Source: Streptomyces sp. I6 (GTDB lineage Bacteria; Actinomycetota; Actinomycetes; Streptomycetales; Streptomycetaceae). Taken from it: DNA of 64,000 nt. Numbering within the stretch: position 1 is the stretch's first letter; every line of letters starts with the position of its first letter. Under the pieces are notes generated by a model. That model saw only the letters and a list, made by a program, of their open reading frames with translations, was not told the origin of the DNA and ran no database searches. The position numbers and the translations under genes are program-made. This document shows, in pieces, positions 27,121-40,359 of this stretch. The DNA lies in assembly GCA_003725745.1 (NCBI GenBank), contig RHDP01000001.1, positions 3,005,501 through 3,069,500 on the forward strand. Reading direction: 5' to 3'.

Positions 27121-27139
27121 TTACTTCTTCTTGCCCTGG
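27121..27139. repeat. attL core of the element
   Basis: TTACTTCTTCTTGCCCTGG, identical to 39464-39482. To its left is chromosomal flank with the gpm terminator; to its right is element DNA. Confidence 0.85.
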
Positions 27140-27185: not shown

Positions 27186-28178
27186 CTATTGGTCCATCTG
27201 TGAGCTGTCGTTGTTGGCCGCTGACGGTTGCTCGTGATCCTCCTCGGACGGCCCAGAGACGGCCCGGGCCTTCATCGCTGCGGAGCGTCGAAGGTCGTCG
27301 GGAGTCATGAACGTGGAGATGTCAGAACTGGGTGTGCATGGGGCTGCCAAGCGTCGCTGCCTCTCCTCTTCGGACAGCGGAACGTACTCGGGCGGTTCGT
27401 AGGTCTCGTCTGTCCACCCGCAGTGCGAGCAGACCCCGGCCACCACGTTGTAGGACTCACACTCTTCACACCGCCTCACAGACCTCGCGAGCCGTAGCCG
27501 CGCCGCGGTGAAGACACCGAGCAGGTGCTCAACGGCCTTCAAACCGATCTCTGCGTCCAGCCGCACCGCGCTCTTGGCGTGCGTCAACCAGTTGACGTAC
27601 TCCCAGGTCTCAACGGAGATCTTCTTTAGATACGAGCGAAGCTTGGCGGTGGATGCTCCGGCGGCCAAGTAGTTGGCCAGCAACTCTGACCATGCCCGGA
27701 AGTCGGCGTTCTTCGGTCGTTCCTTGCCCGCCGGCACCAAGTGATCGGAGCACGCCTCCCCGATGAAGGAGACCAAGCACTCCCGCAGTCGGACGCCCAC
27801 AGCCTGAAAGTTCTCGGCTTCGTCTCCGCTGTCATAGGCCTCGAAGGCTTGTTCCCACCGACGCCACGTGCCAGGCAGCAGATCGACTTTCTCTGGCCCG
27901 ACTGGCACTTCTCGTTCTTGGAGGTACGACATCCGAAGCATGAGGCCGACGTGGAAGGTCAGGACGACGTCTCGGCTTTTGAAGTCGCGCTGATCGTAGA
28001 GGTTCGTGCTGTTGGTTACAACCCACCAGCGGCTCCCCTCGCAGTGCACATCCCAGATGTCATGGCGTACTGGGCCAACCATCTCTGAGGCTGATTTCTC
28101 CAGATGCACGACCTTCTCGTGCGCCTGGTCCTCAACGTAGGCCCTGATGTCGTCCTTCTCGCGGTTCGTAGCGCGCAT
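27186..28178 (-). CDS. element cargo, unknown protein with C-terminal zinc ribbon
   Basis: 330 aa from ATG 28178. An N-terminal alpha/beta-looking region (VRHDIWDVHCEGSRWWVVTN) and a long helical middle (ELLANYLAAGASTAKLRSYL, then WEYVNWLTHAKSAV) are followed by a C-X2-C...C-X2-C zinc ribbon (RRCEECESYNVVAGVCSHCGW), and a charged tail. It follows the 422-aa gene by 66 nt on the same strand, suggesting a two-gene unit. No family recognised; the helical WLTH region is reminiscent of HEPN-like folds but lacks an R-x4-H motif. Confidence 0.75.
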   Translation of the reverse strand: MRATNREKDDIRAYVEDQAHEKVVHLEKSASEMVGPVRHDIWDVHCEGSRWWVVTNSTNLYDQRDFKSRDVVLTFHVGLMLRMSYLQEREVPVGPEKVDLLPGTWRRWEQAFEAYDSGDEAENFQAVGVRLRECLVSFIGEACSDHLVPAGKERPKNADFRAWSELLANYLAAGASTAKLRSYLKKISVETWEYVNWLTHAKSAVRLDAEIGLKAVEHLLGVFTAARLRLARSVRRCEECESYNVVAGVCSHCGWTDETYEPPEYVPLSEEERQRRLAAPCTPSSDISTFMTPDDLRRSAAMKARAVSGPSEEDHEQPSAANNDSSQMDQ

Positions 28179-28244
28179 GCCTCCCCTCAACTCTCTTCGG
28201 GGCAAGGATAGCGGTGACAGTGCCACCGATCGGACTGTTTTTGC

Positions 28245-29513
28245 TCATTTCAACGAAATTGGAGTCGAACACGGGCCCACACTGCCGACTCGTACGGCCA
28301 CGGGGGATAGCCTGATCCGGGGAAGTTCTGTGAGTACCTGTCCTATCGAAAGCTCCGGACGGCCTCTATTCACCCTCGGGTGACTGGGTACCCAGCAAGG
28401 AAAGCGGTGCAACCCCAGGAGCATGGAAAGCGCATATGTAAGCTGCGCCGAAGTGTTAACCAAACCAGATATAAGCGGCGTGACATCTCCGTCATCATCA
28501 ATAATGCCATTGATCACTTTGACTACCTGATCGGGCTCCTGTGGGTTAATGAACGAGGAAAGCACAGCTTCCGCTCGGCGATTGGCTTGCCGCACTGTCG
28601 GAACCATGTCGGGCGGAGGAGTCGCACGGGAGAATATATGCGACACCGGGTCTTCCGCTCGCACCGCTGACTCGATAGCTTGGAGGGCTTGCAGCGTAGG
28701 GAACGGATGCAAGCTAAAATCTCCGCCACTGCTACTGGTCGGAATCTTGAAAGCTGCCAGGTTTGCTCCGGGTTCTACATCTTCGTAGTCACTCCCTCGG
28801 ATCTCCTCGATTACGGCAGCGCAATCTTCGATCAGCATCCGAAGAGTGTTCCGTTCGATCTCGAGATATCCCGCCATGGCGTCATCCATGAGGGGAATTA
28901 TCTCAATTTTTTCCGGCCACCCCTGGAGTAGAGACTTAGCATGCCTGCTCCATTTGAACCTGGCCGACAATAGTTCGGAACGGTTCAGGTGCAGGCATGT
29001 CAACCTTTGCCCATTCGAACCGGAAGAAACTGTAATGCCCGAGGAGGGGATTCCGCAGTGCTGCGTGTAGTCCCGAAGATTATAGAGGAATCGGTACCCC
29101 TCATGCGCGTCAAAAGCGCCAGACATCGACTTTTTGAAGCTCAAAAACTGTGCGCTACCCTCGCCGAACGCGGACATCATGAAATCGCGTTCGCTCTCGA
29201 GGTAAAGTCGAGTCGCAGCAAGCCAAGTCGCCAAACGCTCCATCAGTAAGGCTCCAGCTTGGCGCCAATTAATCTTTCGAAAACTGCCACCCAGGTTCTC
29301 GATATTTACATAAGCTGAAAGGATTGATTTCAACTCGCTTGACGAACGCTCGAGGAACTGGAAGGCTCGCCTCTCTTGTAGAGTCAGAAATTTTCCCGCT
29401 ATTACTCCATAGCGATCATATTCCGCCTCCGAGATGTCTCGCCGATGAGAAACGGTCATCCCTTTTTGATCCGGCTTCTGAGTCCAAATACCTACGGCGT
29501 ACCTATGCCCCAT
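28245..29513 (-). CDS. element cargo, unknown protein with HEPN-like motif
   Basis: 422 aa (or 404 aa from a second Met, MTVSHRR). Base composition is visibly AT-richer than the rest of the window, with codons rare in Streptomyces, indicating recent acquisition. The protein is mostly helical. It contains YNLRDYTQHCGIP, in which R-D-Y-T-Q-H fits the R-X4-6-H catalytic motif of HEPN ribonucleases. That motif alone is weak evidence. Together with the neighbouring zinc-ribbon protein it could be a defence or toxin-type cargo unit; equally it may be an unrelated accessory gene. Confidence 0.7.
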   Translation of the reverse strand: MGHRYAVGIWTQKPDQKGMTVSHRRDISEAEYDRYGVIAGKFLTLQERRAFQFLERSSSELKSILSAYVNIENLGGSFRKINWRQAGALLMERLATWLAATRLYLESERDFMMSAFGEGSAQFLSFKKSMSGAFDAHEGYRFLYNLRDYTQHCGIPSSGITVSSGSNGQRLTCLHLNRSELLSARFKWSRHAKSLLQGWPEKIEIIPLMDDAMAGYLEIERNTLRMLIEDCAAVIEEIRGSDYEDVEPGANLAAFKIPTSSSGGDFSLHPFPTLQALQAIESAVRAEDPVSHIFSRATPPPDMVPTVRQANRRAEAVLSSFINPQEPDQVVKVINGIIDDDGDVTPLISGLVNTSAQLTYALSMLLGLHRFPCWVPSHPRVNRGRPELSIGQVLTELPRIRLSPVAVRVGSVGPCSTPISLK

Positions 29514-30328: not shown

Positions 30329-30666
30329 GGGGTCGCTCCCGCCGGGTAGGCCAGCAGCACGTAGCGGGTGCTCTCGTCGTAGAGAGTGAGTTGGTAGCCC
30401 GTGCCACCGGTCAGGTAGGCGAGGGCCCGCTCGTGCTCGGCCTCGTCCGTCAGCCAGTGCAGGCCCGGCCGTGCGTAGGCGGCGTCGAGCTGGTCGGTGA
30501 TGTGCCGCGTGCGCTCGCGTAACCAGCGCAGTGCCAGGCGTGGACTCGTGGCGTCGTGTGCTCCCAAGGGGATGGCACGGACCTCGTTCAACGGGTAGGC
30601 GGCGGCTCGGCACAGGTAGGGGAGGGGCCGGCCGTCTGTATTCAGCACTACGGGAGGAGCGGACAT
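30325..30666 (-). CDS. AICE-conserved small protein, 113 aa
   Basis: MSAPPVVLNTDGRPLPYL start; a soluble protein with YQLTLYDESTRYVLLAYPAG near the end. The ATG overlaps the stop of the upstream HATPase gene (ATGA), so the three genes 31096 to 29951 form a translationally coupled operon. No function recognised. Confidence 0.7.
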   Translation of the reverse strand: MSAPPVVLNTDGRPLPYLCRAAAYPLNEVRAIPLGAHDATSPRLALRWLRERTRHITDQLDAAYARPGLHWLTDEAEHERALAYLTGGTGYQLTLYDESTRYVLLAYPAGATP

Positions 30667-31096
30667 CAGCACGGGCGCCCTCCTGCCGGTCCGACTTCGG
30701 TGAAGAGTTCCGCGGTGACCGTGTAACCGCCGTGGCTGCCGTGGACGACGACCCGGTGCGCGAGGACGCTGACCATGCCGAGCCCTCGGCCGTGCTCCGC
30801 CTCCTGGCCCTGGTGCTCGACCTTCGGGGCCGTGCCGGTGCCTCCGTCGTCCGTGACGGACAGGGCGATCACCTGCGGGGAGACCGCGAGTGCCAGATGG
30901 AAGCTGCCGGATGTCTGGCCGCTGGCCGTGTGGAGGATCGCGTTCGCGCTCAGCTCGCTCACGATCAGCTCGGCGTCCTCCGCCAGCGGCGATCCCCGCA
31001 GGATGTCGCGGGTCCAGCGGCGGGCCCTGCTGACCTCTTCCGGGAATCCTGGGCAACTGAGCCCCAGACCCGGACGCTACTCGTATACTCGTGCAT
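30666..31096 (-). CDS. RsbW-like ATP-binding (anti-sigma type) protein (frame broken once)
   Basis: HATPase_c fold: N-box ELSANAILHTASG, G1-type VTDDGGTGT, and HGRGLGMVSVLAH. The proper start ATG 31096 (MHEYTSSVRVWG) is in another frame; restoring one G in the G4 run near 31060-31063 gives WGLSCPGFPEEVSRARRW and a 143-aa protein. Such proteins are typical Streptomyces single-domain anti-sigma-like kinases. It is preceded by a KorSA-type operator candidate. Confidence 0.8.
31079..31094. promoter_or_regulatory. element operator copy 1
   Basis: ACTCGTATACTCGTGC, a diverged copy of the ACTCGTCTAGACGAGT palindrome, overlapping the start region of the HATPase operon. Confidence 0.55.
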
Positions 31097-31142: not shown

Positions 31143-31574
31143 CTAGACGAGTTTCACGCCGTCGTGGGCGCGGATGGCCGGCGGGGATGCCGCGTCGAGT
31201 GCGTCAAGCACACGTATCGCGTACGCCTCGTCGGTGAGTTCGATGACCTCTTCGCGGGTGGCCCAGTGCAGGGCGCGGGTCTCGTCCCCCGTGGTGGGTG
31301 TGCCGTCGGCCGCCTGGCAGCGGAAGACGAGGGAGACGATCAGGCCCGTCATGTTCTTGTAGACGCCGGTCAGGGTCGCGGGAAGCTCGATCTTGATGCC
31401 AGTCTCTTCGAGGACTTCGCGCTGAAGGGCTTCGGGGATGGTCTCCTCGCGTTCGAGGACTCCGCCCGGGGGTTCCCAGTGGCCGTTGTCGCGGCGCTTG
31501 ATCAGGAGGGCCCGGCCTTGGCCATCGACGATGACCCCGGCGACGCTCACGGAGTGCGGGCGTTCTGTGCTCAC
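31143..31574 (-). CDS. Nudix hydrolase, Pif-like
   Basis: 143 aa from GTG 31574. The Nudix box GGVLEREETIPEALQREVLEETGI matches G-X5-E-X7-REUXEEXGU. In pSAM2 the Nudix-motif protein Pif gives immunity against redundant transfer and is encoded near korSA; this gene has the same position, divergent from the KorSA-like gene. Pif identity is therefore inferred from context. Confidence 0.85.
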   Translation of the reverse strand: MSTERPHSVSVAGVIVDGQGRALLIKRRDNGHWEPPGGVLEREETIPEALQREVLEETGIKIELPATLTGVYKNMTGLIVSLVFRCQAADGTPTTGDETRALHWATREEVIELTDEAYAIRVLDALDAASPPAIRAHDGVKLV

Positions 31575-31629
31575 GTTCCTCGGCCCTCTCGGCTGACTAG
31601 GCTCTCCACCGTAGCAACAAGACTCGCCC

Positions 31630-31645
31630 ACTCGTCTAGATACCT
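31630..31645. promoter_or_regulatory. element operator copy 2
   Basis: ACTCGTCTAGATACCT: a perfect left half of the palindrome 13 nt before the GntR start codon, overlapping the likely promoter of both the repressor and Nudix genes. Fits autorepression. Confidence 0.65.
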
Positions 31646-31657
31646 AAAGGAGTACGC

Positions 31658-32443
31658 ATGGCGTCTCTACCGAGCATTCTCGGCGGCCTCGACCCGACCA
31701 GTGATCGTGCGGTCTTCCGGCAGATCGCCGACCAGCTGCGCGAGGCCATCGACCGTGGGCGATTCAAGGAAGGGGAGAAGCTGCCCTCCGAGGCCGAATT
31801 GGTCGAGCACTACGGGGTTTCCCGGATGACGGTCCGGAACTCCTTCTCGATCCTCCAGGGCGAGGGCCTGGTGCACGCCGAGCACGGCCGGGGCGTCTTC
31901 GTCCGGCCCCGGCCTCCGGTGCGCCGCCTCGCCTCCGACCGGTTCGCCCGGCGCCACCGCGAGCAGGGCAAGTCCGCGTTCATCGTGGAGGCCGACGCCG
32001 CGGGCAGCCACCCCACCGTGGACAGCCTGGAGGTGAAAGAGGAGAAGGCCAGCCAGGACATCTCCACCCGGCTCGGTTCCGTGCGGCGCGTGCTCGCCCG
32101 GCGTCGCCGGTACCTGCTCGACGGCCGGCCGGTCGAGTTCGCCACGTCGTACCTCCCGCTCGACATCGCCCGCGGAACGCAGATTGCCGAGCCCAACCCC
32201 GGCCCCGGTGGCATCTACGCCCGGCTTGAGGAACTGGGCCACCAGCTCGACCACTTCGAGGAGGAGATCCGGGCCCGGATGCCTTCACCGTCCGAGGTGA
32301 AGACGCTGCAACTGGCCTCCGGTGTGCCAGTGATCCACCTGATCCGCACCGCCTTCGACACGGCGGGGCGGGCCGTGGAGGTCTGCGACACGGTGATGGC
32401 GGCGGACGCGTACGTCCTCTCCTACCAGCTTCCGGCGACCTGA
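31658..32443 (+). CDS. GntR/HutC family repressor, KorSA-like
   Basis: 261 aa. N-terminal GntR winged helix (FRQIADQLREAIDRGRFKEG, EAELVEHYGVSRMTVRNSFS, GEGLVHAEHGRGVFV) and C-terminal UTRA ligand domain (ARRRRYLLDGRPVEFATSYLP, VIHLIRTAFDTAGRAVEV). By position and family it is the counterpart of pSAM2 KorSA, which represses transfer and replication activators. AAAGGAG precedes the ATG. Five copies of a shared operator in the element are its probable targets. Confidence 0.88.
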   Translation: MASLPSILGGLDPTSDRAVFRQIADQLREAIDRGRFKEGEKLPSEAELVEHYGVSRMTVRNSFSILQGEGLVHAEHGRGVFVRPRPPVRRLASDRFARRHREQGKSAFIVEADAAGSHPTVDSLEVKEEKASQDISTRLGSVRRVLARRRRYLLDGRPVEFATSYLPLDIARGTQIAEPNPGPGGIYARLEELGHQLDHFEEEIRARMPSPSEVKTLQLASGVPVIHLIRTAFDTAGRAVEVCDTVMAADAYVLSYQLPAT

Positions 32444-32956: not shown

Positions 32957-34334
32957 TGACCGACCTGGCAACGATTCTGGAGGTGGGTGGTCCCCTCGCC
33001 GCGCTCGGCGGTGGGGCCGCCTACACCCGGGCGCGACACCCCGGCGCCTACTGGTCCACGGTCGGCTTACCGGTGTCCACGGTCCGGCTGCTCAGCTCCT
33101 ACGGCTCCGTCATGGAGGCGTGCGGGCTGACCGTGGCCCCCTCCCGGCTGCGGGTCCTGGCGGTCAAGGCCACCACCCGCCGTGAGGTCCGGCCCGTACC
33201 GCCGCGCCGGGGATCATCCGGCCGACCACGACGGGGCTGCGGGTCCGCCTGCGGCTCGCCCCGGGACAGGAACCCGCCGACGTGGCCGCCTCCGCCGAAC
33301 GGCTGCGGCACGCCTGGGGCGTCCACGCCGTCTACGTGACCACGCTCAAGCCGGGCGTGGTCGAACTGCGGCTCGTCGGCTTCGACGTGCTGCGGCGGGT
33401 GCGCATGCCGCGCAAGCTCCGCCCGGACCTGCTCCGGGTGCCGGTCGCACTGCGCGAGGACGCCACTCCGTTCGTACGCGACTACCGCACCGTGCCGCAC
33501 CAACTCACCCTCGGCGCAACGCTGTCCGGCAAATCCATGTACCTGCGTCACCTCGTCGCCGGCCTCGCCCGCCAGCCCGTCGCCCTGGTCGGCATCGACT
33601 GCAAGCGGGGCGTGGAACTGGCGCCCTTCGCCCCGCGTCTGTCGGCGCTCGCCACCGACCCGGAACAGGCCGCCGAACTGCTGCCCGTGCTCATCAAGGA
33701 AATGGAGGACCGCTACGACCTGATCAAGGCTCGGCAGGGCATCGCGCTGAGCATGCCGGACGAGGAGATAACCTCCGACATCTGGGGCCTGTCCGAGCAT
33801 AAACGCCCGGTACCCGTCGTGCTGTTCGTCGACGAGGTGGCTGAACTTTTCCTCGTGGCCACGAAGAAGGACGAGGAACGCCGGGACGAGATGGTCACCC
33901 AGCTCATCCGGCTCGCCCAGCTCGGCCGGGCCGCCGGTATCTACCTGGAGGTCTGCGGGCAGCGCTTCGGCGCCGAGCTGGGCAAGGGCGCGACCATGCT
34001 GCGGGCCCAGTTGACCGGCCGGGTCTGCCACCGCGTCAACGACGAAGCCTCCGCCAAGATGGCGCTGGGCGACATCGCGCCCGAGGCGGTCTCGGCCGCC
34101 TGCGCCATCGCTCCCGAGCTGCCCGGCCTCGCCGTGGCCGGTGACACCTCCGGCGGCTGGTCCCGCATCCGCACGCCGTACCTCTCCCTCGGCGACGCCG
34201 CCGAGACCTGCCGCGAGTCGGCCCACCTGGTCCCCGACCTGCCCGCGCTCAAGCCCTTCCGGCCCGACGTGCCCGTGCGACCGCCCGCCGAGACACCGAG
34301 CCCGGTCGTGCGGCCCCGCCCGGTGACCGACTGA
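32956..34334 (+). CDS. FtsK/SpoIIIE-type DNA translocase, TraB/TraSA-like (frame broken once)
   Basis: The only protein needed for intermycelial transfer of double-stranded DNA in Streptomyces elements. Walker A GATLSGKS and Walker B VVLFVDEVAEL are present, then GIYLEVCGQRFGAELGKGATMLRAQL near the C-terminus. The first 84 codons lie in another frame; restoring one G in the G4 run near 33209-33212 reads GIIRPTTTGLRVRLRLAPGQ and gives 459 aa. Membrane attachment would come from the N-terminal part. Confidence 0.9.
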
Positions 34335-35093: not shown

Positions 35094-35285
35094 ATGAGTG
35101 CCAACCGCCGCTTCCGCTCCCTCACCCGCATCGGCCCCGTCCAGGTCGGCACGTCCTACGACGGCCGCGGCCGGGAGAAGCACACCGCCGCCTGCACGGC
35201 CCCGCGCTGCGGCTTCTCCGCCGACTACGACAGCCGCGCCGCCGCCGAACTGGCGGCCCGTACCCATCGCTGCCCCGTTCGCTGA
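35094..35285 (+). CDS. mobile element transfer protein, 63 aa
   Basis: Small basic protein (MSANRRFRSLTRIGPVQVGT) with two Cys and a His near the end (CTAPRCGF, THRCPV) suggesting a zinc site. AAAGGAG precedes the ATG. This size and motif recur in AICEs between spd genes. Confidence 0.75.
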   Translation: MSANRRFRSLTRIGPVQVGTSYDGRGREKHTAACTAPRCGFSADYDSRAAAELAARTHRCPVR

Positions 35286-35855: not shown

Positions 35856-37214
35856 ATCATCACCCGCGCCACTCCGCCTCCGCTCCATGAACTCGGCGAA
35901 CTGGCCGCCCTCGGCACCATGCCCGCACTCCTGCGCCAGCTCTCCGGCCTCGGCGGCTGCACGCACCCGATCCGCCTCGACGGCCACCGCACCGAGTACG
36001 ACGTGAACACCCGCACCGGCGAGATCGGCAGCGTCCTCCACCACCTCGACTCCTCCAGTCTCCCGGCCGGTCACCTCCTGGTCCGCTGCAACAACCGCCG
36101 CACCACCCGGTGCGCGGCCTGCGCCGAGGTCTACCGCCGCGACACCTTCCACCTGATCACCTCCGGACTGCGCGGCGGCAAGGGCGTCCCCGAACGCGTC
36201 GCCGCCCACCCGCGCGTCTTCGCCACCTTCACCGCACCGAGCTTCGGCCCGGTCCACAACCGCCCCACCGGCTCGGCCGGTTCGGTCCGCCGCTGTCGCT
36301 GCGGCGCGCTCCACGACCAGGACGATCCCGCCCTCGGCACCCCGCTCGACCCGGACACCTACGACTACGAAGCGGCCGTGCTCTGGAACGCGCACGCCGG
36401 TCCGCTGTGGCGGCGCTTCTCCATCTACCTACGGCGGGAGGTCGCCAAGCGCGCTGGCCTCACCCAGCGGGCCCTTCGCGAGCACGCCCGGGTGTCCTTC
36501 GCCAAGGTCGCCGAGTACCAGAAGCGCGGGGCGGTCCACTTCCACGCCGTCATTCGCATCGACGGCCCCGAGGGCGGCGACACCCCGCCTCCCGCCTGGG
36601 CCACCGCCGAACTGCTCACCGACGCCATTCGGGCCGCCGCCACCGCCGCCCGCGTGGACGGCCCGGTCGTCGACGGCCGGGCCCACGCCTTCGCCTTCGG
36701 CCGACAGCTCGACGTCCGCACCATCCGCTCGGCCGACTTCGATGGTGGCCAGGAGCTGACCGAACGGGCCGTCGCCGCGTACATCGCCAAGTACGCCACC
36801 AAGGGCGCCGAGACCGCCACGGGAGCTCTGGACCGGCCGCTGAGGTTCCTCGCCGAACTCGCCCAGCTCGACATCAGCGACCACGCCCGCCGGCTCATCC
36901 GCACCGCTTGGACCCTCGGCGCGCGCAAGGACCTCGAACACCTCCGCCTGCGGGCCTGGGCCCACATGCTCGGCTTCCGCGGCCACTTCTCCACCAAGTC
37001 CCGCCGCTACTCCACCACCCTCGGCGCCCTCCGCGACGCCCGCGCCGAATGGCGCCGCGCACAGGCCCTGGAAGCGGCCGAGACCGACCCGGACACGACC
37101 CTCGTCCTCGCGCACTGGGTCTACGCCGGAACCGGCCTCACCGACGCCGAAGCCTGGCTCGCCGAAACCCTCGAACCCGCCCCCGGAACGGAAGGAGAAC
37201 CCACCCATGGGTAG
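35856..37214 (+). CDS. replication initiator, RepSA-like
   Basis: Rolling-circle type. The HUH motif (GAVHFHAVIRIDG) and a YIAKYATKG segment with Tyr and Lys typical of motif III are present; a Cys cluster (RCAACAEVY, RRCRCGALH) suggests zinc. The clean ATG at 35919 has no ribosome site, whereas ATC at 35856 is 7 nt after AGAAGGAG and gives the additional conserved-looking ITRATPPPLHELGELAALG. So either ATC is the start or ATG was lost; from 35919 the protein is 431 aa. It overlaps xis. Confidence 0.85.
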   Translation: MITRATPPPLHELGELAALGTMPALLRQLSGLGGCTHPIRLDGHRTEYDVNTRTGEIGSVLHHLDSSSLPAGHLLVRCNNRRTTRCAACAEVYRRDTFHLITSGLRGGKGVPERVAAHPRVFATFTAPSFGPVHNRPTGSAGSVRRCRCGALHDQDDPALGTPLDPDTYDYEAAVLWNAHAGPLWRRFSIYLRREVAKRAGLTQRALREHARVSFAKVAEYQKRGAVHFHAVIRIDGPEGGDTPPPAWATAELLTDAIRAAATAARVDGPVVDGRAHAFAFGRQLDVRTIRSADFDGGQELTERAVAAYIAKYATKGAETATGALDRPLRFLAELAQLDISDHARRLIRTAWTLGARKDLEHLRLRAWAHMLGFRGHFSTKSRRYSTTLGALRDARAEWRRAQALEAAETDPDTTLVLAHWVYAGTGLTDAEAWLAETLEPAPGTEGEPTHG

Positions 37215-37446
37215 CCGTCGCCTCGCTGTCGCGGAAGCGGTCTCCGAGCCGCGTGGTCTGCCGTCGCGGTACCTGACTCCTGACGACCTGGTGGCGATGT
37301 TCGACCTGCCCAGCGTCGAGACGGTCTACCAGTGGCGCCGCAAGCGCACCGGTCCCCGTGGCTTCCGGGTCGGCCGGCACCTGCGCTACGACCCTGCGGA
37401 CGTCCAAGCCTGGGTCGAGTCCCTGCGGGAAGGGGCTGCCGCCTGA
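37207..37446 (+). CDS. excisionase Xis, MerR-like helix-turn-helix
   Basis: 79 aa. RYLTPDDLVAMFDLPSVETVYQWRRK then GFRVGRHLRYDPADVQAWVE is the classic small DNA-binding excisionase fold. The ATG overlaps the repSA end and its stop overlaps the integrase start (ATGA), giving rep-xis-int in one transcript. Confidence 0.88.
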   Translation: MGSRRLAVAEAVSEPRGLPSRYLTPDDLVAMFDLPSVETVYQWRRKRTGPRGFRVGRHLRYDPADVQAWVESLREGAAA

Positions 37447-38705
37447 TGGCCGGGCACGTCCAAGACCGTTGGTACAGAACCGAAACCGGCCCGGACGGGA
37501 AGGCGCGCAAGGTCAAGACCGAGCGTTACGGGTCCGGTCTCCGCTACCGCGCTCGCTACGTCGGCCCGGACGGCACGGAGAAGGCCAAGAGCTTCCCCGA
37601 CCGTCAGAAGCGGCTTGCTGATCAGTGGCTGGCGCACATCGAGGCGGACATGGCGCGCGGGCAGTACATCGACCCGCGCGCCGCCCGGATCACCTTCCAG
37701 CAGTACGCCGAACGCTGGGTCGCCACGCAGGGCGCCGACCCGAACACCCAAGCCTCGATGGAGTCGCAACTACGGCTGCACGCCTTCCCCTACCTCGGCT
37801 CGCGTCCGCTCGGATCCTTCCAGCCGGCGCACATCCGTGACTGGGTGCGGCAGTTGCAGGAGAACGGCGTCCGCGGGTCGTACGCCCGGACGATCTACTC
37901 CAACGTGCGCGCGGCGCTCAGTGCGGCAGTGGACGATGGCCACCTTCCCCGGAACCCTTGTGCAGCTCGGTCCGTCCGTCCGCCGACCGTCGACAACAAG
38001 CGCATCGTGCCCTGGACGCCTGAGCGGGTCTTCGCCGTCCGGGCCGCCATGCCCGAGCGCTACCAAGCCATGGTCGACCTGGGCGGCGGCTGTGGGCTCC
38101 GCCAGGGCGAGATTCTGGGTGTGGCCGTCGACGCGATCGACTTCGCCTCGGACACGCTCCACGTGGTTCAGCAACTGAAGCTGAGCCGCAGCAAGGCCGT
38201 GTTCGCACCGCCGAAGGGCGGCAAGCTGCGGGACGTGCCGCTCCCCGGCCCTGTCGCCGATGCGCTCCGGGCCCACATGAAGCGGTTCCCGCCGGTCGAG
38301 ATCACCTTGCCATGGAAGGTCGCCGACGGTCCTCCGGTGACCAAGCGGCTCATCTTCACCGGGCCGCGTGGCGGGCACGTCTGGCGTACGTCGCTCAACG
38401 AGGAGGCGTGGAAACCGGCGCTGGCCGCGGCCGGCGTCATCCCCGTGCCCGAGCGCGGCCGACCGTACGCCGAGTCCCGCGAGAACGGCATGCACGCGCT
38501 CCGCCACTTCTACGCCTCGGTGCTGCTGGACGCCGGCGAAAACGTCAAGGCCCTCGCCGAGTACCTGGGCCACTCGGACCCAGGCCTGACACTCCGGGTG
38601 TACGCGCACCTGATGCCGTCAAGTCAGGAGCGCACTCGCAAGGCCGTCACATCAGTCTTCGCTGTGCGCTCCCTCGCCCCGCGTGTCGTTGCACGCGAAA
38701 CATGA
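37446..38705 (+). CDS. tyrosine recombinase integrase
   Basis: 419 aa. An N-terminal arm-binding/SAM-like domain (TFQQYAERWVATQ...IRDWVRQLQ) and a catalytic domain with R (GGCGLRQGEILG), K (PPKGGKLRDVPLP), H-X-X-R (MHALRHFYAS), H (LGHSDPGLTL) and the nucleophile Y (RVYAHLMP). It should recombine the 19-bp gpm core. All catalytic residues are intact, so the element is probably capable of excision with Xis. Confidence 0.93.
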   Translation: MAGHVQDRWYRTETGPDGKARKVKTERYGSGLRYRARYVGPDGTEKAKSFPDRQKRLADQWLAHIEADMARGQYIDPRAARITFQQYAERWVATQGADPNTQASMESQLRLHAFPYLGSRPLGSFQPAHIRDWVRQLQENGVRGSYARTIYSNVRAALSAAVDDGHLPRNPCAARSVRPPTVDNKRIVPWTPERVFAVRAAMPERYQAMVDLGGGCGLRQGEILGVAVDAIDFASDTLHVVQQLKLSRSKAVFAPPKGGKLRDVPLPGPVADALRAHMKRFPPVEITLPWKVADGPPVTKRLIFTGPRGGHVWRTSLNEEAWKPALAAAGVIPVPERGRPYAESRENGMHALRHFYASVLLDAGENVKALAEYLGHSDPGLTLRVYAHLMPSSQERTRKAVTSVFAVRSLAPRVVARET

Positions 38706-38729
38706 GAGCCAAATCAATCTTGCCGAAGA

Positions 38730-38908
38730 TGTTTCACGTGAAATGCGACGCCGACAGCAAAGTTCGGATCGGTGAAACGGAGGACACAAACCCAAAGTTC
38801 GCGACGGTGTTTCACGTGAAATACGACGCTGGCAGCAAAGTTCGGATCACGTTTCATGTGAAACAAGGGAACCGGGACTAAATCCAGGATGATGTTTCAC
38901 GTGAAACA
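38730..38908. repeat. cluster of four parS-like sites
   Basis: Against TGTTTCACGTGAAACA: 38730-38745 (14/16), 38808-38823 (14/16), 38850-38865 (14/16) and 38893-38908 (16/16). The first two and the third are linked by a repeated GACGCYGRCAGCAAAGTTCGGATC segment, and a half-site GGTGAAAC is at 38771. No ParA/ParB genes are in the element. Confidence 0.85.
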
Positions 38909-39105
38909 GAAGCTGCACGTCAACGCGCACTTCGCACCCCCGGGAAGGCAACTCGGAGGGCCCAGCACTCGACCTTGCCATGCACGGGAGGACCCCGCAG
39001 GACACGGAGAGGGACGGAGGGCTCCGGGGCCAACGACAATAGACCGGCATTCACCTGCGGATTTTCATCGAAGCGCGCACGCGGTGTAATGTCCTTGAAT
39101 CAAAG

Positions 39106-39137
39106 AGGAAGGCCGCCCGGCCAGGGGCGGCCTTCCT
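39106..39137. terminator. hairpin terminator, 13-bp stem
   Basis: AGGAAGGCCGCCC pairs exactly with GGGCGGCCTTCCT over 6 nt. It isolates the int transcript from the small gene downstream. The 38910-39100 stretch upstream holds nothing else recognised. Confidence 0.82.
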
Positions 39138-39195
39138 GTGTCCATCGGTGCTGCGTTAACCAGTCCACGGCAAACACGACACTTCTGGAGGGACC

Positions 39196-39375
39196 ATGAT
39201 GCCACGGCCCGGCCTGGCGATCTTTCTCACCCCGCGTGAACTTCCGTTCGGCCTCATCGGGGCAGGTGGCGCGACGCTGGGCGTCTGGGCGGGGGCACCG
39301 GTCATCCCCGTCATCGCGGTTGGGTTCTTTGTGGCCGTGCGCGTCACCATCCAGGGGGTTCGTAACCCCAGCTAG
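39196..39375 (+). CDS. small hydrophobic protein, 59 aa
   Basis: MMPRPGLAIFLTPRELPFGL, then a helix GAPVIPVIAVGFFVAVRVTI. GGAGGG lies 6 nt before the ATG. Location between two terminators, with its own upstream region, supports a separately expressed gene. Unknown function. Confidence 0.5.
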   Translation: MMPRPGLAIFLTPRELPFGLIGAGGATLGVWAGAPVIPVIAVGFFVAVRVTIQGVRNPS

Positions 39376-39413
39376 TAGCTTGACGGCCCCGACGCGGCCC
39401 AGGACCAACCACG

Positions 39414-39450
39414 AGCCCCCTACCCGCGGAGAATCCGCAGGTAGGGGGCT
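39414..39450 (-). terminator. element-borne gpm terminator
   Basis: AGCCCCCTACC pairs with GGTAGGGGGCT around a loop containing CGCGGAGAATCCGC. It lies 13 nt beyond the gpm stop. The string ACCCGCGGAGAA and the 30-nt spacing to the att core are identical in layout to the native terminator at 27070-27108. Confidence 0.8.
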
Positions 39451-39463
39451 TATAGGTGCGGGC

Positions 39464-39482
39464 TTACTTCTTCTTGCCCTGG
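39464..39482. repeat. attR core, at the gpm 3' end
   Basis: TTACTTCTTCTTGCCCTGG on the plus strand encodes the gpm end (QGKKK and TAA) on the minus strand. Confidence 0.85.
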
Positions 39483-40225
39483 TTCCTGACCGCCTCGATC
39501 GCCGCCTTGGCGGCCTCCGGGTCGAGGTAGGTGCCGCCCGGGTGGACCGGCTTGAAGTCGGCGTCCAGGTCGTAGGCGAGCGGGATGCCCGTCGGAATGT
39601 TCAGGGCCGCGATGTCGGCGTCGGAGACGCCGTCCAGGTGCTTGACCAGAGCACGCAGGCTGTTTCCGTGGGCGGCGACGAGGACCGTGCGACCGGTCAG
39701 CAGGTCGGGGACGACGGCGTCGTACCAGTACGGCAGCATCCGGACGACGACGTCCTTGAGGCACTCGGTACGCGGGCGCAACTCCGGCGGGATCGCCGCG
39801 TAGCGGGCGTCGTGCGCCTGGGAGAACTCGTTGTCGTCGTCGATCGGCGGAGGCGGCACGTCGTAGGAGCGCCGCCACAGCATGAACTGCTCCTCGCCGA
39901 ACTCCGCGAGTGTCTGGGCCTTGTCCTTGCCCTGCAGGGCGCCGTAGTGGCGCTCGTTGAGGCGCCAGGAGCGGTGCACCGGGATCCAGTGGCGGTCCGC
40001 GGCCTCCAGCGCGAGCTGAGCGGTGCGGATGGCACGCTTCTGGAGCGAGGTGTGCACCACGTCGGGGAGCAGACCGGCGTCCTCGAGCAGCTCGCCGCCC
40101 CGGACGGCCTCCTTCTCGCCCTTCTCGGTGAGGTTGACGTCCACCCAGCCGGTGAACAGGTTCTTCGCGTTCCACTCGCTCTCGCCGTGGCGGAGGAGGA
40201 TCAGCTTGTACGTCGCGTCGGCCAT
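39464..40225 (-). CDS. gpm: 2,3-bisphosphoglycerate-dependent phosphoglycerate mutase
   Basis: 253 aa, the standard Streptomyces length. [18 protein letters not shown] carries the RHG catalytic His, RTAQLALE and ERHYGALQG are substrate motifs, and [13 protein letters not shown] holds the second His. It interconverts 3- and 2-phosphoglycerate. The last six codons are the element core, yet the protein remains full length. Downstream neighbour of ybjN and mshA, as in Mycobacterium (mshA-Rv0487-gpm1). Confidence 0.95.
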
Positions 40226-40359
40226 GTGGCCGAGCCTAATCGACGCCCCGCACGGTCGATGACGGACGTCCGCCGGCAACTCGCTGGCCTTCCGGAGAGA
40301 CCTACCCGTAATTGCCCGGTCTCCATAGGGCCACTTACACATTCCCGAGGTACGCCCGT

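Follow-up and report, generated by a model that had tools for sequence, protein, structure and literature searches.

A candidate ParB-loading array of parS-like sites between int and attR of an integrated element in Streptomyces sp. I6

Results

The window analysed here comprises 64,000 nt of Streptomyces sp. I6 (GCA_003725745.1, RHDP01000001.1:3,005,501-3,069,500, forward strand), a genome of 7.05 Mb in 2 contigs whose assembly completeness is rated at 87%, so that base errors in degenerate sites are possible. It holds an integrated element (AICE) of 12,362 bp (12.36 kb) between 19-bp direct att repeats at 27121 and 39464. The attL core TTACTTCTTCTTGCCCTGG (27121..27139) repeats the 3' end of pgm, and a pgm-type terminator-like sequence was recognized by eye directly to its left. 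The attR core (39464..39482) was assigned from the same repeat and from comparison with relatives, and lies within the 3' end of the integration target, a gene for a pgm-like histidine phosphatase (39464..40342, minus strand, PF00300) that is the neighbour of the relatives as well. The pgm coordinates are those of the longest ORF, inside which the gene probably starts later; it runs leftwards from about 40.2-40.3 kb. Chromosomal synteny with relatives stops near 24.77 kb on the left and restarts at pgm on the right. A tRNA attachment site was considered and dismissed, as the insertion point has no tRNA and the target is pgm.

A large AICE family uses the 3' end of the phosphoglycerate mutase gene pgm as its insertion site instead of a tRNA gene, with a pgm-type terminator on the element side; our sample holds 67 distinct int-to-core segments from relatives at this site, the window's own not counted. 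AICEs integrated in protein genes are already known, as the accessible text of PMC9513070 and PMC3218068 indicates. In another locus (L106, near 16890) a second pgm 3' end with terminator lies left of the pgm match and resembles a scar left at this insertion site by an element that was lost or has decayed.

The genes of the element, on the plus strand where a position is given unless stated otherwise, include those for a GntR-UTRA regulator (31658..32443, PF00392 and PF07702), an FtsK/SpoIIIE-type transfer protein (33282..34334, PF01580, with a weak plasmid TraB match below cut-off), a DUF2637 protein and the spread protein SpdB (35094..35285, PF05122). These are followed by a pSAM2-type replication initiator RepSA (35919..37214, PF20199, E 4e-156, with the NCBIfam RepSA model below its own cut-off), an excisionase (37207..37446, HTH_17, PHROG excisionase) and a tyrosine integrase (int, 37446..38705, PF00589). 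On the minus strand, the element also encodes a HATPase_c_2-like protein (30666-30962) and a NUDIX hydrolase (31143-31631). Two minus-strand ORFs at the left end, of 346 aa (27186-28226) and 422 aa (28245-29513), are without Pfam match; the latter bears a weak likeness to phrog_30874. With a tyrosine integrase, an excisionase, a RepSA-type Rep and an FtsK-type Tra between direct att repeats, inserted site-specifically at the pgm end that relatives use, the element is an AICE by its gene set, and its excision as a circle, replication and transfer are predicted.

Immediately behind int lie palindromes of the chromosomal parS type, for which matches were counted against the 16-bp sequence TGTTTCACGTGAAACA. 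The initial annotation had described four of them, one matching at 16/16 and three at 14/16, and all four are present on the plus strand, at 38730, 38808, 38850 and 38893. Its counts hold for site 1, TGTTTCACGTGAAATG (38730..38745, 14/16), site 3, CGTTTCATGTGAAACA (38850..38865, 14/16), and site 4 (38893..38908, 16/16), but not for site 2, TGTTTCACGTGAAATA (38808..38823), which matches at 15/16. Sites 1 and 2 are changed at the outer base of one half and site 3 at a central base. A degenerate fifth site on the same strand, CGTTGCACGCGAAACA (38687..38702, 3/16 mismatched), overlaps the end and stop of int, and a half site GTGAAAC (38772..38778, plus strand) was found by eye where the second copy of an internal repeat has a full site. 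That repeat, a 41-bp stretch from 38730 that by eye recurs 78 bp on at 38808, bears out the partly repeated spacers that had been described.

The starts of the five matches are spaced 43, 78, 42 and 43 bp apart, and the half site splits the 78-bp gap into 34 and 44 bp, so that four of five intervals measure 42-44 bp, about four helical turns. The match to the chromosomal-type palindrome goes beyond chance: the window holds five 16-mers with up to 3 mismatches against 0.02 expected, a number reached in none of 100 shuffles. Palindromes of the five full units are 69-94% identical pairwise, and nine of ten spacer pairs are at or below the shuffle 95% level (0.63), with one at 0.67; this contrast of palindrome over spacer is partly circular, since the sites were picked by their match to parS. 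The array ends 556 bp to the left of the attR core, which rules out that it is chromosomal DNA outside the element; lying between int and the core, the cluster is therefore part of the element.

A Pfam scan of 18 ORFs of the element (at least 3 of them mechanical ORFs and perhaps not genes) gave neither ParA nor ParB. When the whole genome was searched in six frames for ParB_N, matches appeared at two places, both outside the element. In agreement with the initial annotation, these scans thus detected no ParA or ParB gene in the element, and the sites are not part of a self-sufficient ParABS cassette with parA and parB beside them.

The Int C-terminus was located in 176 loci (the window's included), of which 90 reach a recognisable pgm core and 86 without one were set aside; between Int residue 400 and the core, the 90 loci gave 68 segments that differ from one another. 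Thirty-two segments measure 111-131 bp and 36, with the window's among them, 606-1869 bp; the short-form relatives have no array between int and core, an observation that bears on a conceivable role of the array as clt, the short direct repeats to which TraB binds. The interval corresponding to 38660-39380 of the window can be regarded as a slot that is filled in 36/68 segments and whose contents differ among relatives (nothing, other cargo, other tandem arrays).

Being placed between int and attR, the array could represent arm-type binding sites of Int or Xis, the alternative that the initial annotation had named. A different repeat fits this role better. A pair of ACGGCCC/GCGGCCC repeats, 11 bp apart, stands beside the core in 50 of the 68 segments (at -84/-73 in 44, at -87/-76 in one and at -82/-71 in five). 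In the window the right pair lies at 39383..39404 (plus strand), in the same position as in relatives, and an ACGGCCC pair with the same distance lies near the left end (27248..27269, plus strand), a repeat also seen at the right end of many relatives, so that both ends of the element carry such a pair. These repeats are likely the arm sites of Int, as judged from their position and recurrence. Three relatives whose Int is 96-98% identical (L120-L122) have only about 130 bp from int to core and no parS; it is thus the ACGGCCC repeats, and not the array, that are shared along with the integrase. The remaining 18 segments, with an Int 68-80% identical, have no ACGGCCC repeat near the core, which indicates that arm sites vary in the wider family and speaks to some extent for the alternative. 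Against the close relatives and the placement of the pair at both ends, however, an arm-site function of the array is hardly credible. Since the ACGGCCC pair likely provides the arm sites and little else lies between int and core in L120-L122, the parS array is best described as cargo that lies outside the recombination site.

Further right, the slot of the window contains a 59-aa ORF (39196..39375, plus strand), hydrophobic by eye, that tblastn detected in 24 of the 36 filled slots, a count that includes the window and one 22-residue match (L082); a further slot scored as lacking it (L090) seems by eye to hold a diverged one. The ORF product had no match in Pfam, NCBIfam or PHROG. Upstream of it are a promoter-like box, ACCTGCGGATTTTC ... 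TGTAATGT (39053..39092, plus strand), assigned by eye and recurring in many of the 24 upstream sequences, and a GC-rich hairpin (39107..39137, plus strand), possibly a terminator or attenuator, in a stretch that folds at -32.6 kcal/mol, a value without shuffle control; by eye, GC hairpins occupy the same place in relatives. A search for known RNA families in 38600-39500 yielded a miRNA match below threshold and nothing else. As slot contents, DnaA boxes (TTGTCCACA, up to 1 mismatch) were considered and rejected, with 4 sites against 4.5 expected.

Upstream of the promoter-like box and hairpin, 12 of the 24 slots with the 59-aa ORF carry tandem arrays with periods of 26-72 bp, as against none in 120 shuffles; the test does not flag the window's own, diverged array. 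Among the 12 slots counted as lacking the ORF, one has a tandem array, namely that of L090. Inspected by eye, most of the arrays bear no relation to one another, with a common unit in L076 and L129, and they differ even between elements whose Int is more than 90% identical to that of the window. The parS array thus occupies the place where relatives keep other arrays.

From this it could be argued that the array is simply one of the fast-evolving tandem arrays of the slot, serving some other factor or a structural role, and that its resemblance to parS arose by convergence or is incidental to what it does. The motif counts in relatives lend this a little weight. Gapped pairs TTTCAC-N0..8-GTGAAA with up to 2 mismatches numbered 9 in 22 slots, above the shuffle mean of 1.7 and maximum of 6 (60 shuffles), a count that is inflated by tandem copies and comes from 4 of the 22 slots. 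GTGAAA itself was present in 7 of the 22 relatives' slots where 2.8 were expected (z 2.6), a number exceeded among the shuffles. On these counts parS-likeness is not demonstrable for the arrays of relatives, a point against the reading of the array as a ParB-loading site. A scan of all 36 slots found two 8-mers in 7 slots each, as against at most 6 in shuffles. In the window, by contrast, five near-matches to a 16-bp palindrome where 0.02 are expected make convergence very unlikely, and the host ParB should bind such sites in any case. We consider this explanation improbable.

For a wider search, Int relatives were taken from 29 loci (L073-L101), from the best 80 of 547 relatives (L120-L199) and from 60 downstream stretches (L200-L259), giving 169 loci with an Int 58-98% identical in tblastn, of which 151 are distinct when the first 130 bases behind int are compared; the loci cover part of the int matches obtained in 295 genomes. 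None of the 169 relative loci has a parS with 2 or fewer mismatches in the 1500 bp that follow int; two of them (L166 and L235) end 139 and 194 bp after int and say little. One relative (L087) has a 3-mismatch site downstream of int. Upstream of int, sites with one mismatch (L150) or two (L165 and L199) occur at about the level expected by chance for 1.95 Mb. As far as examined, the array is private to this one element, and a parS array as a general trait of AICEs finds no support in these loci. The initial annotation, which had suggested this search, had named absence from related elements together with lack of ParB binding as the outcome that would speak against its own reading; the first of these two is what was found.

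No PLSDB plasmid was similar to 38600-39200 at E 1e-5. In 138 loci with parS pairs or triples, many of which span only 3 kb, tblastn detected no AICE proteins close to these sites; as a control, 3 of 6 queries recovered the window's own locus (L072). The combination GTTTCACGTGAAAT-N10..40-TTTCAYGTGAAA was found in one of 392 Streptomyces genomes, the window's own. Close parS pairs are usual in the genus (the pair pattern matched in 335/392 genomes), and triple arrays occur in 42 genomes, this one included, of which the others, among the matches listed, begin with perfect sites.

The restriction to one element, together with the state of the sites (three full ones changed, one halved and one with 3/16 mismatches), is also what a captured chromosomal parS locus without present function would look like while decaying. 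A donor was not recognized in the DNA compared. In BLAST comparisons the array shares with the 12 other parS regions of the host only the palindromes and a few matches of 8-11 bases, with no common flank, so that an origin from a host parS locus was discarded. The fetched loci of other genomes gave only parS-to-parS matches for the array itself; the sole other match nearby (63 bases, 79%, to L040) concerns 38959-39018, to the right of it. Moreover, one site is still intact at 16/16. A decaying capture hence appears distinctly improbable.

The 14-mer GTTTCACGTGAAAC occurs in perfect form 13 times in the whole genome, 12 times elsewhere and once in the array, and all 3 one-mismatch copies genome-wide are in the array. 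The 12 other perfect sites lie at genome positions 3331289-3640118, the region that holds the host parB (3391037); the nearest is about 287 kb from the array, and parB is about 347 kb from the element. The host ParB was aligned with ParB chain 6t1f, which we take to be C. crescentus ParB, and with Noc chains. In the recognition helix it carries R opposite the Q of Noc, and at a second position G opposite an R of Noc, and its specificity set reads R-T-R-G. If the chain index is taken as shifted by ten, which also fits T179 and A184, the two residues fall on 173 and 201 in the numbering of PMC7383237. In the available portion of that source R173 and G201 go with parS specificity, and an RTKG variant bound several sites. 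The outer base changed in sites 1 and 2 is position 1, which distinguishes parS from the Noc site. Read in this way, the same cell contains a cognate ParB with parS-type specificity residues, and a change of the outer base is plausibly tolerated by an RTRG protein. The description of the sites as chromosomal-type parS inside a conjugative element was thus upheld: they are of the host type, lie between int and the attR core, and share the cell with a ParB of parS-type specificity. The host ParB therefore likely binds the array, perhaps with weakened affinity.

The second contig, of about 119 kb, has a weak ParB_N match at 106416-106733 (minus strand, 22.2 bits, below cut-off). It is perhaps a plasmid's own partition protein, and another possible reader of the array.

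Discussion

The array may be an element-borne site for ParB loading that exploits the protein of the host. Binding is likely from the sequence of the sites, the benefit to the element is more conjectural, and we regard the reading as a whole as evenly balanced between true and false. ParB-CTP of the host would be loaded onto the array and slide away from it for 2.5-3 kb, the distance over which S. venezuelae ParB spreads according to the accessible part of PMC12511625, and would thereby cover repSA, xis, int, attR and pgm. Together with the chromosome, excised, replicating circles would then be moved by ParB and ParA to hyphal tips and into spores, and their loss would be lowered. Against this stands the finding of the array in one element only, and in 0/169 relative loci.

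Precedents exist for the individual steps. Chromosomal par operons with a parS stabilised unstable plasmids, as reported in the portion of PMC7022226 at hand, and AICEs replicate as circles (PMC3218068, in the text seen). For these two reasons we rate partition of the circle by the host ParAB somewhat above a control of rep-xis-int and attR by ParB. A counterpoint is that the element is ordinarily passed on together with the chromosome, so that partition is less needed. The suggestion that the sites keep the integrated copy near the origin domain adds little, because the element is already about 347 kb from parB.

In Caulobacter a strong parS on a plasmid was toxic and a weak parS was not, as far as the excerpt of PMC5815017 goes. 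A benefit to the element is for this reason not a given, and by the same observation weakened sites on a replicating element become understandable: the changed and halved sites may keep the array too weak for harmful competition with the host parS. A more specific version would have a deliberately weakened array, placed in a slot of fast-changing arrays, that borrows ParB and ParA of the host to segregate excised circles to tips and spores. This version is put forward tentatively and is, in our judgement, doubtful.

ParB loading might also act closer to the array. In one variant of the loading reading, it would dampen rep-xis-int and the recombination at attR and so couple the element to host development. 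Taken as the sole role, the bound protein would serve as a roadblock or repressor over repSA-xis-int and attR, tying excision and replication to the developmental rise of ParB. The array adjoins int and is 556 bp from the attR core, well inside the spreading range cited above, and stands upstream of the promoter-like box and of the 59-aa ORF shared by 24/36 filled slots. Gene expression is under the control of BisD, a ParB-like protein, in Pseudomonas ICEs (PMC12704722, in the part consulted), and a title cited in PMC7022226 describes the S. coelicolor parAB promoter as developmentally controlled. Relatives with the same type of int, however, manage without parS, and local control as the main role seems rather unlikely.

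Compared with known systems, the array resembles the chromosomal parS clusters of Streptomyces (ParABS) in its 14-16 bp palindrome and in a spacing as close as that of native pairs. It differs from them in being on a mobile element, 287 kb outside the other host parS, and in that three of its four full sites are degenerate, whereas the 12 others of the genome are perfect 14-mers. The element itself is similar to the pSAM2-type RepSA AICEs in carrying RepSA, an FtsK-type Tra, SpdB, GntR, Xis, Int and att repeats, and has relatives at the same pgm site. Unlike pSAM2-type elements it resides in a protein gene and not in a tRNA gene, and its parS array was seen in no relative examined. With the test plasmids stabilised by chromosomal par operons and parS it has in common a parS in cis on a second replicon. 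Here, however, the array is natural, the element has no par genes and is mostly integrated, and stabilisation is putative. The BisD protein of Pseudomonas putida ICEs, a ParB-like CTPase regulator, is likewise a ParB-fold protein acting on an ICE, but it is the ICE's own protein, whereas the present element brings only the DNA sites and would rely on a protein of the host. A search of titles and abstract starts in the open-access literature found no report of parS in an AICE, and a literature search on parS on excised ICEs, or on host or chromosomal ParB with mobile elements, brought up no AICE report either.

Host-type parS on mobile DNA may extend beyond this case. In IMG/VR, 70 stretches have closely paired perfect parS, and ParB matches were obtained in two of them (L275 and L308). 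Ten proteins of five high-GC contigs were scanned, revealing a portal/head ORF in L268, L293 and L299, a terminase in L308 and two proteins without match in L287. Two or three perfect parS, 24-45 bp apart, lie at L268:4750-4853, L299:5492-5529 and L293:6958-7019. They are inside the portal/head ORF in L299 and L293, and beside it, within a mechanical 277-aa ORF, in L268. ParB genes of their own outside the fetched stretches, or misassigned contigs, are possible for these sequences.

If the array works as a ParB-loading site, it would represent a natural mobile element that uses the chromosome segregation of its host by means of DNA sites alone. It would also make it possible to test how much parS affinity is tolerable to a host when placed on a second replicon, and whether the excision of AICEs in the developing mycelium responds to ParB loading. 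A family of natural swaps, with which the role of such arrays may be probed, is provided by the hypervariable slot between int and attR.
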